A stretch of 64,000 nt of DNA. It comes from Gemmatimonadales bacterium. GTDB lineage: Bacteria; Gemmatimonadota; Gemmatimonadetes; Longimicrobiales; Gaopeijiaceae. How positions within the stretch are numbered: the stretch's first letter is position 1; each line of letters begins with the position of its first letter. The translations under genes were made by a program, and so were the position numbers. The notes beneath the pieces were generated by a model that had not been told where the DNA came from, made no database searches, and saw only the letters and a program-made list of their open reading frames with translations. This document shows, piece by piece, positions 14,972 to 22,307 of the stretch. The DNA lies in the NCBI GenBank assembly GCA_020344755.1, contig CP070829.1:1-64000 (forward strand), given 5' to 3'.

Positions 14972-15583
14972 TCACTCGTATTTCCGGATGACGCCGACCA
15001 CGACACCCTGAATCTGCACGTCCCGGGCATCCTCCACGATGGGCGACATGGTGGAGTTCGCCGGCTGGAGGCGAATGCGGTTTCCGGGTTCTCGGTAGAG
15101 CTTCTTCACCGTGGCGGATTCGCCCCGCACCAATGCCACGACCATCTGGCCATCCTCCGCCGAATCCTGGGAGGCCACCACGATGTAGTCCCCGTCTCGG
15201 ATCTGTTCCTCGATCATGGAGCTTCCCTGGACGCGGAGGACGTAGTTGTCCCGGCCGCGCCGAACCATGTCCGGCGGGACCGCCAGGGCCTCGTCGTCCT
15301 GGACGGCCTCGATGGGAAGGCCTGCGGCGACGGTCCCCAGAAGGGGAAGGGGCACCGCAGGTGGCGCCGAGTCGGCTTCCACCAACTCGATGGAACGGCT
15401 CTCGTTGTAGGCCTTCCGGATGTACCCCTTGCGTTCCAGATTGCTCAGGTGCTCATGGACGGTGGCCAGCGACGAATAGCCGAAGTGCTCGGCGATCTCC
15501 TCGAAGCTGGGGGCGTACCCCCGGTCCTGGATGAATTCGCCGATGTGATCGAGGATTTCCTTCTGGCGCTTGGTCAGCGGCAT
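14972..15583 (-). CDS. lexA: LexA SOS repressor
   Basis: Transcriptional repressor of the DNA-damage response that self-cleaves when RecA filaments form. The 203-residue protein begins with the winged-helix DNA-binding domain (MPLTKRQKEILDHI; recognition-helix region about 25-50). The cleavage site is Ala87-Gly88 in TVAAGLP, and the serine/lysine dyad is Ser122 (GSSM) and Lys160 (ATVKK). The ATG at 15583 matches family starts; 24 further upstream codons in frame lie in the promoter. Its promoter has a TTGCGC-N17-TATCCT core whose spacer is a direct repeat, strongly suggesting autoregulation. It is convergent with trpD and divergent from trpC. Confidence 0.95.
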   Translation of the reverse strand: MPLTKRQKEILDHIGEFIQDRGYAPSFEEIAEHFGYSSLATVHEHLSNLERKGYIRKAYNESRSIELVEADSAPPAVPLPLLGTVAAGLPIEAVQDDEALAVPPDMVRRGRDNYVLRVQGSSMIEEQIRDGDYIVVASQDSAEDGQMVVALVRGESATVKKLYREPGNRIRLQPANSTMSPIVEDARDVQIQGVVVGVIRKYE

Positions 15584-15607
15584 GGCCGTCGCTCCGTGGA
15601 CCCGGTA

Positions 15608-15655
15608 CCCGAATAAGACCCGAACAAGGATACCCGAACGTTGCCCGAAGCGCAA
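15608..15655 (-). promoter_or_regulatory. lexA promoter with two pairs of 11-bp-spaced direct repeats (candidate LexA operators)
   Basis: On the minus strand TTGCGC (15650-15655) and TATCCT (15627-15632) are 17 bases apart. TTCGGG occurs four times, at 15644-15649, 15633-15638, 15619-15624 and 15608-15613. The pairs are spaced 11, then 14, then 11 bases. The first pair exactly fills the -35/-10 spacer and the second covers the expected transcription start. Written as GTTC-N7-ATTC, the second pair resembles the direct-repeat LexA boxes of alphaproteobacteria. The operator identity is inferred from position and similarity. Confidence 0.55.
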
Positions 15656-17107: not shown

Positions 17108-18316
17108 GTGACGCAAACCAAGGTGGGAATGGAATCGAGCCATCGCTTCGGGGTCTTCGGCGGACGGTACGTCCCCGAGACCCTCATCGCGGCGCTGGAC
17201 GAGCTCGAGGTGGCCTACGAAGAGGCTGGACGCGATCCGGGATTCACCGAGGAGCTGGAGCTCCTTCTCAAGGACTATGTCGGCCGCCCCTCGCCCCTGT
17301 ACCGAGCGCGGCGACTGGAGGAGGCCGTGGGGGCGGGACCGGTCTACCTCAAGCGGGAGGACCTGAACCACACCGGCGCCCACAAGATCAACAACACGGT
17401 GGGCCAGGCGCTCCTGGCCCGCCGGATGGGGAAGCGCCGCATCATCGCAGAGACCGGTGCCGGGCAGCACGGGGTTGCGACGGCCACGGCGTGCGCCCTC
17501 TTCGACATGGAGTGTGTGGTCTACATGGGGGCGGAGGACGTGGAGCGTCAGGCCCTCAACGTCTTCCGCATGCGTCTCCTCGGGGCCACGGTCGTTCCGG
17601 TGCACTCCGGTACCCGGACCTTGAAGGACGCGACCAACGAGGCCATCCGGGACTGGGTCACCAACGTCCGGGACACCCATTACATCATCGGCTCGGTGGT
17701 GGGCCCGGCACCCTTCCCTAGAATGGTGCGCGACTTCCACGCGGTGATCGGGCGCGAGACCCGGGCCGAGATCCTCGAGCGGGAAGGACGCCTTCCGGCG
17801 GCGGTGGTGGCGTGCGTGGGCGGTGGTTCGAACGCCATGGGAATCTTCCACCCCTTCGTGGACGATGCGGCTGTAGCGCTGGTCGGGGTGGAGGCCGCCG
17901 GGGAGGGGATCGCGTCGGGGCGCCACTCGGCTACCCTCACTGCCGGCACCCCCGGGGTACTCCACGGGGCGATGAGCTATCTTCTCCAGGACGACGATGG
18001 CCAGGTGGCGCCGGCTCACTCCGTCTCCGCCGGTCTGGACTACCCCGGTGTGGGGCCCGAACATAGTCACCTGAAGGATACCGGCCGGGCCACCTACGTC
18101 TCGGTCACGGATGAGGAAGCACTGGCGGCGTTCGATACGCTCGCTCGGCTGGAGGGGATCATTCCCGCACTGGAAACGGCCCATGCCGTGGCGCACCTGC
18201 TGAAGATGGGCGAGGACTATCGGGATCGGGGGCCGCTGGTCCTCTGCCTGAGCGGTCGGGGGGACAAGGACGTGACCCACGTCGCGAAGCTCCGCGGTCG
18301 GACGCACGAGAGCTGA
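17108..18316 (+). CDS. trpB: Tryptophan synthase beta subunit
   Basis: PLP enzyme condensing indole and serine into tryptophan. The 402-residue protein is of the standard TrpB1 type. PLP lysine is Lys93 in [14 protein letters not shown]; the phosphate-binding loop is [13 protein letters not shown], and [15 protein letters not shown] lies between them. It starts with GTG four bases after trpF and stops four bases before the HEAT-repeat gene. Its partner trpA lies 3.2 kb downstream, beyond two signalling-type genes on the same strand, an uncommon separation. Confidence 0.96.
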
Positions 18317-18320
18317 CCCT

Positions 18321-20048
18321 GTGGAACGCCCTCCCGAACCCGCCGGCACCGGAGAGCCCGACCTGTCCTTGGTACCCGTCGACCTCATCGCCGAGTTCTT
18401 CATCACGCTGGGGAAGGCGCTCCGAGCCTTCCAGCTCTACGACGAGAACAACCCGGTCTACCAACGGTTCACCCAGGCCTTGGCGGCTGCCTTCCAGGGT
18501 CTCTGGGATGAGCTGGACGAGCTTCACCTCGTCGTGGAGGAAGACCGCCTTCTGGTAGAGGGTGAAGAGGTCTATCGGAACGCCACCCGGTCCGAGTCCC
18601 TGGCCTTCCTCCTGTACAAGGACGGGATCCGGAGCCTGACGTTCCGACGCGGGATCGAGCGAGAGGCGAAGCCCCTTCTCACGGTGCTGAACAAGGCCCG
18701 CCTGGCCCGGAGCGACGGCGACGATCTCATCACCCTGCTCTGGGAGGCGGACCTACGGTACCTGCAGTACCGACACGTGGACCTGCTCGCCGAGGGCGTG
18801 ACCCTGCCGGAGGCGGGTCCGGGACACTCCGTGGGCGAGCTCCAGGCGGTGCTGGAGGCCGAGACGGCCGAGGGTGAGGAAGACGGCGGCCCTTCGGCCT
18901 CGGTGGCGGCGGCTCCCCCCCAGACGCTCAACCGCGAAGACTTCAATCCCACTCTCTACAGCCTGGATGCCCGGGAAATGGAAGAGGTGGAGGCCGCCAT
19001 CGCGGAGGAGATGGGGCGAGACGTCCGCGGTGAGGTGCTCAACGCTCTCTTCGACCGCTTGGAGGAGCGCAACCCGGATCGGCAGTCCGAGATCCTCGAG
19101 ATCGTGTCGCTATTGGTCCCCGGACTCCTGGCCCGGGGAGAGCTTCTGGCGGCGTCCGGCGTCCTGGCGGAGCTCCGGAGGGTGGAGGGCCAGGAAGGGA
19201 TCATGACCGCCGACCATCGGCAGATGGTGAGCCGCCTCCTGGATCGTCTCTCCAGCGAGGAGACGGTGGCCGAGTTGGTACGCGCGCTGGAGGGGGGCAC
19301 GATCGTGCCTTCGCCCGGTCTCCTGGCCGACTTCCTCGTGCAGCTCCGTGCTCAGGCCCTGGGAATCCTCATCCGCGCAGCCGAGACCACGCCGTCCCGG
19401 GAGCTCCAGGAGGTGCTACGGGAAGCCGTGGCCGGGATCGCCCAGAGGAACCGAAAGGGCCTGGTCCGGTTTCTCCAGTCGGACGATCCCATCGTCCTCT
19501 CGGGTGCGCTGTTCCTGGCGGGCCGAATGAAGGTGAAGGAGGCGGCCCCCTATCTCACCGACCTCCTCTACCACGTGGCACCCGAGGTCCGGAAGGCCGC
19601 CGTCCAGTCGGTTCTCGATCTCCAGGCGACGACCCTGGCCAGCGCTCTCCAGGAAACGCTATTGGATCCGGAGGCCGAGGTACGGGTGGCCGCCGCCCGG
19701 GCCCTGGAGGCGTTGCGGTATCGAGGCGCGGGTCCTCGCTTCCGCGAGATCCTCCAGAGCAAGGAGATCCGGTCCGCCGACCTGACCGAGCAGATCGCCA
19801 TGTTCGAGGCGTATGGGGCGGTGGAAGATCCCCAGGCGGTGAGCTTCCTCGGGAAGTACCTGAACGGGAAGGGGTTCCTCGGCCGCCGCGAGCCCTCCGA
19901 GATCCGGGCCTGCGCGGCTCTGGCCCTCGGCAAGGTGGGGACTCCCGAGGCGAAGGAGGCCCTCCGGAAGGCCGTGACCGACGACGATCCCGTGGTCCGC
20001 AACGCTGTGGGTCGGGCTCTCCGGGGGGGACAAGGGGGCGCACGGTGA
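18321..20048 (+). CDS. HEAT-repeat protein with N-terminal domain shared with the next gene
   Basis: A 575-residue, apparently soluble protein without a signal peptide. Residues about 20-140 form an alpha/beta domain (LGKALRAFQLYDENNPVY, LLVEGEEVYRN, GIRSLTFRRGIERE) that resembles the N terminus of the HD-GYP protein encoded next. An acidic/alanine linker follows. The C-terminal half (about 340-570) is a run of helical HEAT-like repeats, for example LYHVAPEVRKAAVQSVLD, DPEAEVRVAAARALEAL and DDPVVRNAVGRAL. HEAT repeats usually serve as protein-binding scaffolds. GTG start; the stop overlaps the next gene as GTGA, so the two are probably co-translated partners. No enzymatic motif is seen and its function is unknown. 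Confidence 0.85.
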   Translation: MERPPEPAGTGEPDLSLVPVDLIAEFFITLGKALRAFQLYDENNPVYQRFTQALAAAFQGLWDELDELHLVVEEDRLLVEGEEVYRNATRSESLAFLLYKDGIRSLTFRRGIEREAKPLLTVLNKARLARSDGDDLITLLWEADLRYLQYRHVDLLAEGVTLPEAGPGHSVGELQAVLEAETAEGEEDGGPSASVAAAPPQTLNREDFNPTLYSLDAREMEEVEAAIAEEMGRDVRGEVLNALFDRLEERNPDRQSEILEIVSLLVPGLLARGELLAASGVLAELRRVEGQEGIMTADHRQMVSRLLDRLSSEETVAELVRALEGGTIVPSPGLLADFLVQLRAQALGILIRAAETTPSRELQEVLREAVAGIAQRNRKGLVRFLQSDDPIVLSGALFLAGRMKVKEAAPYLTDLLYHVAPEVRKAAVQSVLDLQATTLASALQETLLDPEAEVRVAAARALEALRYRGAGPRFREILQSKEIRSADLTEQIAMFEAYGAVEDPQAVSFLGKYLNGKGFLGRREPSEIRACAALALGKVGTPEAKEALRKAVTDDDPVVRNAVGRALRGGQGGAR

Positions 20049-21454
20049 CGACGAATCAGCAAGTGGGTCGCCAGATCCTCATCGCCCTGTACGGCTCGCT
20101 CCGCGCCCTGAAGCTCTACCCCCTGGAGAACGACGCCGTCCAGCAGGCGCTCACGGACCTCCACGGGCGGGTGACCGACCTGGTGGAACGAGAGCGGGGA
20201 ATGGAACTCCGGGTGGTCGGAGAGTTCTTCTTCCTGAACGAGACGCGTCTCCGACTCGACCTATCGACCTTCGCGACCTTCGGTACCGTGGCCAAGGCGC
20301 TGCAGGACCACGGGATCGGTGCCGTGGAAGTCGCGCCGGGGGTTCAGAGGGGCGAGTGGGCCCCCTTCCTGTCCCTGCTCCTGCGCACCCCCGAAGGCGA
20401 CGAGGTCTATCGCACCTTCCTGAACCGGGTGGCCGGAACCCCGGTGAACCACATCCTCACCCGGCCGAGCGAAGACGTCTCGGGAGAGCTGGACGAAGAG
20501 GAGGCGATCGAACAAGCGAAACGCACCTACGCCCAGTCGGTCAAGGTCGCCAAGGACATCCTGGGGGACGTCCGCTTGGGGAAGGCGGTGAACGTGCGGA
20601 AGGTGAAGCGCGCGGTGCAGGGGATCGTGGACCAGGTCCTGAGCAACGAGCCATCGATGCTCACCATGACCACGCTCCGGGACTTCGACGAGTACACCTT
20701 CACCCACTCCGTGAACGTCTGCATCCTCAGCGTCATCATCGGGCAGCGCATCGGACTGGACCGGCTGCAGCTGTACGAGCTCGGGATGGGAGCGCTGCTG
20801 CACGATCTGGGCAAGATGCGGTTGGACGTGGACGTTCTCAACAAGACCGGGTCCCTCACCGACGAGGAGTGGTCGCAGATGAAGGAGCATCCCACCGACG
20901 GGCTGCTCATCCTCTTCGACATGGGGGGGTTCGCCGACATGCCGTACCGCCAGATGCTGATGGCGTACGAGCACCACATGAAGCTGGATCTCACCGGGTA
21001 CCCGACCAATCGCAGGCCTCGGCAGCCGACTCTCTTCTCCCGGATCGTCACCGTGGCCGACGGCTTCGACGCCGCCACTTCCATCCGCAGCTACCAGCAC
21101 ATTCCGTGGGCTCCGGACCAAGTTCTTCGGGAGATGCGTGACAACCCGAGCCGCGGGTACGACCCCCTCCTGGTCAAAGTCCTCATCACCGCGACCGGGG
21201 TGTTCCCCATCGGGACGCTGGTCATTCTGGACTCCTACGAGCTTGCGGTGGTCTCGGGTGTGAATCCGAATCCGGAGCTGCTCCACCTCCCGAAGGTGAA
21301 GGTGATCTCGGACTCCATGGGGATTCCCCTGGCGGAGCCGGTGACGATGGACCTGGCAGAGGTGGATCCGGCGACGGGGATCCCGCCCCGCTCCATCGTC
21401 AAGACCACCGAGCCCCAGAAGTACGGAATCCGGGTGGCCGACTACCTGATCTGA
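20045..21454 (+). CDS. HD-GYP-type phosphodiesterase-like protein
   Basis: A 469-residue protein whose C-terminal half is an HD-GYP domain, a family that hydrolyses cyclic di-GMP. It shows TFTHSVNVCILS (first metal histidine), the HD pair in ALLHDLGKMRLD (about residues 250-260), LMAYEHHMKLDLTGYP (GYP at 318-320) and VTVADGFDAATS. The canonical HHExxDGxGYP stretch is partly degenerate (HHMKLDLTGYP), so activity is probable but not certain. Residues 1-140 (ALYGSLRALKLYPLEND, FFFLNETRLRLDL, GIGAVEVAPGVQRGE) look like the upstream HEAT protein N-terminal domain. No transmembrane segment. It sits between trpB and trpA, and its GTG start overlaps the upstream stop. Confidence 0.88.
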   Translation: MTTNQQVGRQILIALYGSLRALKLYPLENDAVQQALTDLHGRVTDLVERERGMELRVVGEFFFLNETRLRLDLSTFATFGTVAKALQDHGIGAVEVAPGVQRGEWAPFLSLLLRTPEGDEVYRTFLNRVAGTPVNHILTRPSEDVSGELDEEEAIEQAKRTYAQSVKVAKDILGDVRLGKAVNVRKVKRAVQGIVDQVLSNEPSMLTMTTLRDFDEYTFTHSVNVCILSVIIGQRIGLDRLQLYELGMGALLHDLGKMRLDVDVLNKTGSLTDEEWSQMKEHPTDGLLILFDMGGFADMPYRQMLMAYEHHMKLDLTGYPTNRRPRQPTLFSRIVTVADGFDAATSIRSYQHIPWAPDQVLREMRDNPSRGYDPLLVKVLITATGVFPIGTLVILDSYELAVVSGVNPNPELLHLPKVKVISDSMGIPLAEPVTMDLAEVDPATGIPPRSIVKTTEPQKYGIRVADYLI

Positions 21455-21509: not shown

Positions 21510-22307
21510 ATGAAGGCGACCGTGTCCCGCATCTCCCGAGCCTTCCAGGACCGTGCCCAAGGCGGCAAGGCTGCCCTGATTCCCTACGTCACGGCCGGGT
21601 TCCCCGACCTGGACGTCACGGACCGGATCCTCGATGGCCTGGTGGAGGCCGGTGCGGACATCATCGAGCTGGGGATCCCCTTCAGCGATCCGCTGGCCGA
21701 CGGGCCCACCATCCAGGCGTCCTCGTTCCGGGCTCTCCAGAACGGGGTGAGAGTGGAGTGGGTGCTGGAGCGGCTCCGAGCCTTCCGGAGCCGCCACGAC
21801 GTGGCCGTGGTTCTCTTCACCTACCTCAATCCGGTGGTGCACTACGGTCCGGAGAGATTCTGCCGCGACGCGAGACAGGCCGGGGCCGACGGGCTTCTGC
21901 TCACGGACCTTCCGGCAGGGGCGGATCCCGGACTCGAGGAGACGGTGCGCGGGTCGGGGCTCGAGCTCATCCGTCTTCTGGCACCCACGACGCCCCTGGA
22001 GCGTGTTCCCGAGGTGGCCGCCGGGGGAAGCGGGTTCCTCTACTACATCTCCCGAACCGGCGTGACCGGTGCCTCCGCGGAGCTACGGCAGGAGCTGGCG
22101 AACGAGGTGGCCCAGGTCCGGGAGGCGGCCGAGCTGCCCGTGGCTGTGGGCTTCGGCATCAGCACCCCGGAGCAGGCCGCGTCGGTGGCGGGAATCGCGG
22201 ACGGAGTCGTGGTCGGCAGCGCGCTGATCCACGCGCTGGAGGCGGGGGGGGTGGAGGGGGCGGTGGAGTTCGTTCGGGCCCTGCGGGACGCCATGGACGG
22301 GGCCTGA
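21510..22307 (+). CDS. trpA: Tryptophan synthase alpha subunit
   Basis: Cleaves indole-3-glycerol phosphate to indole, which is passed to TrpB. The 265-residue barrel has the catalytic glutamate and aspartate in IIELGIPFSDPLADGPTIQ. It also shows YVTAGFPDLDVT near the N terminus, LLLTDLPAGADPG, YYISRTGVTGAS and VGFGISTPEQAASV. It is last on the plus strand before convergent rqcH and is 55 bases after the HD-GYP gene, so it may still be part of the trp transcript. Confidence 0.95.
   Translation: MKATVSRISRAFQDRAQGGKAALIPYVTAGFPDLDVTDRILDGLVEAGADIIELGIPFSDPLADGPTIQASSFRALQNGVRVEWVLERLRAFRSRHDVAVVLFTYLNPVVHYGPERFCRDARQAGADGLLLTDLPAGADPGLEETVRGSGLELIRLLAPTTPLERVPEVAAGGSGFLYYISRTGVTGASAELRQELANEVAQVREAAELPVAVGFGISTPEQAASVAGIADGVVVGSALIHALEAGGVEGAVEFVRALRDAMDGA

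Follow-up and report, generated by a model that had tools for sequence, protein, structure and literature searches.

A HEAT-repeat protein and an HD-GYP protein with a common N-terminal domain: a recurrent gene pair and putative cyclic-dinucleotide module

Two overlapping genes between trpB and trpA of a Gemmatimonadota genome encode a HEAT-repeat protein and an HD-GYP protein that begin with the same domain (hereafter NTD), and such pairs recur in other bacterial phyla. We consider it reasonably probable that the two genes form one ancient cyclic-dinucleotide module, in which an HD-GYP phosphodiesterase and a HEAT scaffold would be paired through their NTDs and would set c-di-GMP locally. Sequence comparison documents the shared NTD, the recurring pairing and gene order, the frequent four-base overlap, one lineage that has lost the HHE glutamate, and fusions to c-di-GMP domains. 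The NTD–NTD heterodimer, the catalysis, its substrate and the role of the HEAT protein are what we infer.

The locus

The window analysed here is a stretch of 64,000 nucleotides from a Gemmatimonadales bacterium. The two genes, their GTGA overlap and the trp genes on either side (Table 1) lie exactly where the earlier note had placed them from the letters alone. The HEAT gene has a GTG start 4 nt past the trpB stop, and 55 nt separate the end of the HD-GYP gene from the start of trpA. A lexA-like gene (window 14972-15655, minus strand) lies divergently within the trp cluster; it still adjoins the pair at loci that have lost the trp genes.

Table 1. Features of the HEAT/HD-GYP locus in window coordinates
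Feature	Position	Strand	Basis
trpB, upstream neighbour of the HEAT gene (context only)	17108..18316	+	
Gene 1, NTD + HEAT-repeat protein, 575 aa	18321..20048	+	Pfam, AlphaFold/Foldseek
NTD of the HEAT protein, about residues 18-152, H-H-E-E-H-E-H-H-E	18372..18776	+	hhalign to the HD-GYP NTD; AlphaFold
Linker of the HEAT protein, residues 154-238, low predicted confidence	18780..19034	+	pLDDT < 50
Helical HEAT solenoid, about residues 250-569	19068..20027	+	Pfam, AlphaFold, Foldseek
GTGA stop/start overlap, gene 1/gene 2	20045..20048	+	
Gene 2, NTD + HD-GYP + C-terminal beta domain, 469 aa	20045..21454	+	
NTD of the HD-GYP protein, about residues 2-141	20048..20467	+	hhalign, NTD profile, AlphaFold
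Connecting helices, residues 151-210	20495..20674	+	Pfam, AlphaFold
HD-GYP domain	20657..21208	+	motif residues, fold
C-terminal beta domain, common to DUF3391-type HD-GYP proteins	21209..21448	+	alignment, AlphaFold model
trpA, downstream neighbour of the HD-GYP gene (context only)	21510..22307	+	

A shared N-terminal domain

Profiles were built from the orthologous N-termini of each protein. The HEAT and HD-GYP profiles match over 98 columns (hhalign 95.8%, E 8e-9), whereas control comparisons in which profiles were reversed or column-shuffled, or in which other domains or parts of either protein were used, reached at most 2.8%, and chance similarity is rejected. AlphaFold models of the two proteins, obtained from separate alignments (mean pLDDT 86.8 for the HD-GYP protein and 74.8 for the HEAT protein), have the same order of elements in this region: helix-helix-strand-strand-helix-strand-helix-helix-strand. 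In the HD-GYP protein, pLDDT is about 75–96 across the first 110 residues. The earlier note had proposed a shared domain from the similar layout of the two N-termini and had named a profile-profile comparison as the way to check it; the significant match and the common predicted topology confirm that the two domains are homologous members of one family.

The NTD is uncatalogued in the libraries searched (Pfam, NCBIfam and PDB sequences). Pfam has no family over either N-terminus of the window proteins. Neither Pfam nor NCBIfam gave a reliable match for any of 34 NTD members, nor did PDB sequences for the profile built from them. Foldseek searches of the PDB with the whole models returned matches for the HD-GYP and HEAT parts only, and none for the NTD. 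One HEAT protein of genome G079 (L105 4657-6339) has a divergent N-terminus that matches the NTD model partially and does not carry the LYP motif.

Conservation of the gene pair

An NTD profile search of the window genome found exactly four NTDs, which make up two HEAT/HD-GYP pairs; as all four were part of the search profile, the informative part of this result is the absence of others. In the second pair (L058 8184-11713, about 642.2-645.7 kb of the genome), an NTD/HEAT protein of 735 aa comes first and an NTD/HD-GYP protein of 441 aa second, again with a GTGA overlap. Neighbours of this pair include Rho and an aminotransferase. Strong orthologs of the HD-GYP protein (E < 1e-80) are present in about 199 of 298 Gemmatimonadota genomes, as counted by eye. 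Nearly all of these genomes also have the HEAT gene, and the two genes are adjacent and in the same order at every ortholog locus read that had room for both. Genomes without the window-type pair often carry pairs of the second type, whether one, two or a tandem arrangement. Within the window's family GGDEF is found in all 22 pair-bearing genomes and the pair is absent from the 20 GGDEF-less genomes listed, an association that is confounded by phylogeny. A tblastn search of the plasmid gave a DUF3391-type HD-GYP protein without the NTD.

The pair also recurs elsewhere. Among 350 genomes from three other phyla, reached via Geoalkalibacter, acidobacterial and myxococcal loci and named after the titles of the loci, 91 have NTDs at pair spacing (1.2–3 kb apart on the same strand), with 119 such cases in all. 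By phylum, these are 49 pairs in 39 of 118 genomes (that of G316), 27 in 21 of 119 (that of G335) and 43 in 31 of 113 (that of G332). The upstream reading frame is the longer one in 73 of 76 spaced pairs, HD-GYP is the second gene in all 15 pairs checked in full, and the upstream partner passes the Pfam HEAT models in 9 of 10 tested. A genome scan and HMM search identified NTD/HD-GYP genes that have a second NTD gene upstream. They occur in Armatimonadota, as two tandem pairs, and in Geoalkalibacter, a deltaproteobacterial MAG, Nitriliruptoraceae (Actinomycetota) and another bacterium. At a planctomycete locus, the HD-GYP gene has an upstream partner without a detectable NTD. The commonest junction among readable pairs is a 4-base overlap (37 of about 64, a figure biased upward because start codons were chosen nearest that position, and drawn from many pairs that are related to one another).

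In all eight pairs compared from outside Gemmatimonadota, it is the NTD on the HEAT side that leans further than its partner towards the Gemmatimonadota HEAT-side model, although two of the pairs (L218 and L222) look closely related and the independent number is about seven. This conserved order of NTD types within pairs suggests that two old types exist. Because both genes are found side by side across many bacterial phyla, the pair appears to be an ancient signalling unit. The two-protein module that had been proposed from a single locus, and that would have lost its footing had the pair never been conserved in other genomes, is thus upheld by both the neighbourhood survey and the homology of the N-termini. 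A search of the literature on HD-GYP proteins with HEAT repeats, with most subscription journals outside it, found nothing that describes the pair.

The domain outside the pairs

Confinement of the NTD to adjacent HEAT/HD-GYP pairs holds in the window genome but fails elsewhere, where single proteins and GGDEF or PilZ fusions are found. Some NTD-HEAT proteins, notably in Acidobacteriota, have no HD-GYP gene beside them, hence the NTD does not serve the HEAT/HD-GYP pair alone. In four acidobacterial loci (L234, L235, L239, L240) such stand-alone genes repeatedly adjoin an inorganic-pyrophosphatase-like gene. Other single chains have the architecture GGDEF-AAA_16-NTD-HEAT (L230, L231, L238, L244) or NTD-HEAT-cNMP-PilZ (L236, L237, L245), and four proteins, including L230 and L231, have two NTDs in tandem. 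In the GGDEF proteins, a diguanylate cyclase is thus joined to the NTD. Two of the PilZ fusions (L236 and L245) are followed by a gene that by eye resembles a primase/toprim-like protein. The GGDEF and PilZ fusions among unpaired NTD proteins point to c-di-GMP, in line with the signalling context proposed earlier.

The NTD could instead be a sensor or ligand-binding domain that reads the same signal in both proteins, which would then form no stable complex. The NTD is compact, of alpha/beta type, and stands N-terminally in proteins whose outputs differ (HD-GYP, HEAT, GGDEF, PilZ), a distribution that is also seen in sensory domains. However, the single invariant position across the NTD family is Y25, no ligand pocket has been identified in the domain, and tandem NTDs in one chain, together with the frequent overlap of paired genes, suit pairing at least as well. 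We regard a purely sensory NTD as possible but doubtful, and favour a pairing domain.

The HD-GYP protein

The product of gene 2 matches Pfam HD_5 (1.8e-12) and HD (5e-12), and its AlphaFold model has the HD-GYP fold, with Foldseek matches to 4mcw, 3tm8, 9rbz and 4r8z. The motif residues are H221, H253-D254, K257, H282, H310-H311, G318-Y319-P320 and D339. Upstream of them, the start of the connecting region aligns with the final 40 positions of DUF3391 (147-186; Pfam, E 1.4e-4). The metal ligands of PmGH served as the reference set for comparison (PMC4159591). Seven of them (H189, H221, D222, H250, H276, H277 and D305 in PmGH numbering) are invariant in 47 of 47 orthologs, and D183, K225, the GYP motif and R314 are invariant as well. 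The eighth ligand, E185 (the ExxxH glutamate of the trinuclear site), corresponds to Y217 and is Tyr in all 47. Because seven of the eight ligands are present, the protein is probably a two-metal HD-GYP phosphodiesterase, its substrate most likely being c-di-GMP; two-metal members are counted within the HD-GYP family (PMC4159591).

A slightly degenerate GYP motif, as described in the earlier note, is not what we see: G-Y-P is intact in 47/47 orthologs, and that reading is rejected. What does differ from consensus is the HHE motif, which reads HHM, together with the G that precedes GYP and the ExxxH glutamate, in whose place Y217 stands; instead of the extended consensus HHExxDGxGYP, the window protein has HHMKLDLTGYP. 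When HD-GYP domains are compared, the HHE glutamate occurs in 0 of 32 paired proteins versus 67 of 69 unpaired ones; in a small number of relatives GYP itself is broken.

Given the loss of E185 and the HHE glutamate and the few broken GYP motifs, some members may be non-catalytic. The same features would fit an HD-GYP protein that acts throughout as a non-catalytic cyclic-dinucleotide receptor or holoenzyme subunit with the HEAT protein as its output, as would the inactivity on c-di-GMP of a close fold match, Bd1817, which has no GYP tyrosine (PMC4159591). Yet the invariance of seven metal ligands, D183, K225 and GYP in 47 orthologs suggests selection for catalysis, and PmGH with the E185A substitution keeps some, albeit reduced, activity (PMC4159591). 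We find a non-catalytic role unlikely and retain the phosphodiesterase reading.

In a tree of HD-GYP domains, from which the NTD was excluded, 31 of 32 paired proteins group together (SH-aLRT 90) beside the DUF3391-type HD-GYPs. One origin of the paired HD-GYPs is allowed, though not proven, as a tree constrained to unite all 32 has the higher likelihood (AU p 0.68). We mention as a speculative extension that they might constitute a separate enzyme class, in which loss of the HHE glutamate throughout the lineage would change the substrate to another cyclic dinucleotide or make activity dependent on docking of the HEAT partner's NTD; the pair would then be a widespread two-subunit phosphodiesterase with a new heterodimerisation domain.

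The tryptophan genes

The order lexA(-) trpC (trpF) trpB HEAT HD-GYP trpA is usual in this class of Gemmatimonadota, and its wide recurrence makes co-transcription likely. It is also what speaks for a pair that regulates or responds to tryptophan synthesis, a functional tie that had been suggested from this locus. The tie did not hold up. In G165, G157, G038, G284, G037 and G187 the pair lies beside lexA without flanking trp genes; it is kept in the absence of trpB in G157, G284 and G183 (no real match in the latter), and in G165 trpB is 1.37 Mb away (G157, G165 and G183 being single-contig assemblies). The second pair of the window genome lies elsewhere, and pairs in other phyla have other neighbours. 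Since the pair does not depend on trp genes, we reject it as a component of the trp operon and consider a role in tryptophan synthesis very improbable. Placement among the trp genes reflects the gene neighbourhood in this class and lies outside the function of the module.

The HEAT protein

The HEAT protein scores 76 bits against Pfam HEAT_2 (2.2e-21; curated cut-off 27.7), and Foldseek matches of the C-terminal part of its AlphaFold model to alphaRep, armadillo and PP2A scaffold proteins indicate a solenoid fold. The solenoid is likely a protein-binding scaffold. That the protein might act on a chromophore or modify a protein, like the phycobilin HEAT proteins CpcE and NblB, with HD-GYP merely adjacent, is suggested by weak NCBIfam matches but is extremely implausible: the NblB and CpcE scores (40 and 22 bits) fall so far under the curated equivalog cut-offs (300 and 330) as to reflect generic HEAT similarity, which rejects a phycobilin-lyase identity, and an HD-GYP protein is consistently the partner.

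Proposed mechanism and significance

The most likely role of the shared NTD would be to pair the HEAT and HD-GYP proteins. If so, the NTD-bound HEAT protein could place the phosphodiesterase at a target or gate it there, and the HD-GYP enzyme held in this way would set c-di-GMP locally. The usual picture of an HD-GYP enzyme is that of one protein carrying its own sensor domain. The HEAT/HD-GYP pair is found in about a quarter of the genomes sampled from three phyla and in most of the window's class; should the model be true, it would represent a common, undescribed organisation of c-di-GMP signalling by dedicated scaffolds. The pair makes local control of c-di-GMP directly testable, and the NTD profile would let many proteins annotated without function be assigned.

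Relation to known systems

By both sequence and tree, the closest relatives of the window HD-GYP protein are DUF3391-type HD-GYP proteins (Pfam PF11871 + PF13487). The connecting region and the C-terminal beta domain are common to both, but in the window protein the NTD replaces DUF3391, the HHE glutamate is gone and an NTD-HEAT partner is encoded upstream. The HEAT protein has the C-terminal solenoid of HEAT_2 / PBS-lyase HEAT repeat proteins, and differs from them in carrying the NTD and in its genetic coupling to an HD-GYP gene. Among close Foldseek matches of the HD-GYP domain, Bd1817 of Bdellovibrio (3tm8) and PA4781 (4r8z) have two-metal sites; to our knowledge, no NTD or HEAT partner has been described for either. 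PmGH of Persephonella marina (PDB 4mcw) is a GAF-HD-GYP c-di-GMP phosphodiesterase (PMC4159591). The window protein has in common with it the HD-GYP fold (Foldseek 2.8e-8), seven of its eight metal ligands as well as D183, K225, GYP and R314, and departs from it in the change of E185 to Tyr (two metals predicted rather than three), HHE to HHM, DGxGYP to DLTGYP and K317 to Gln, and in having the NTD in place of GAF.
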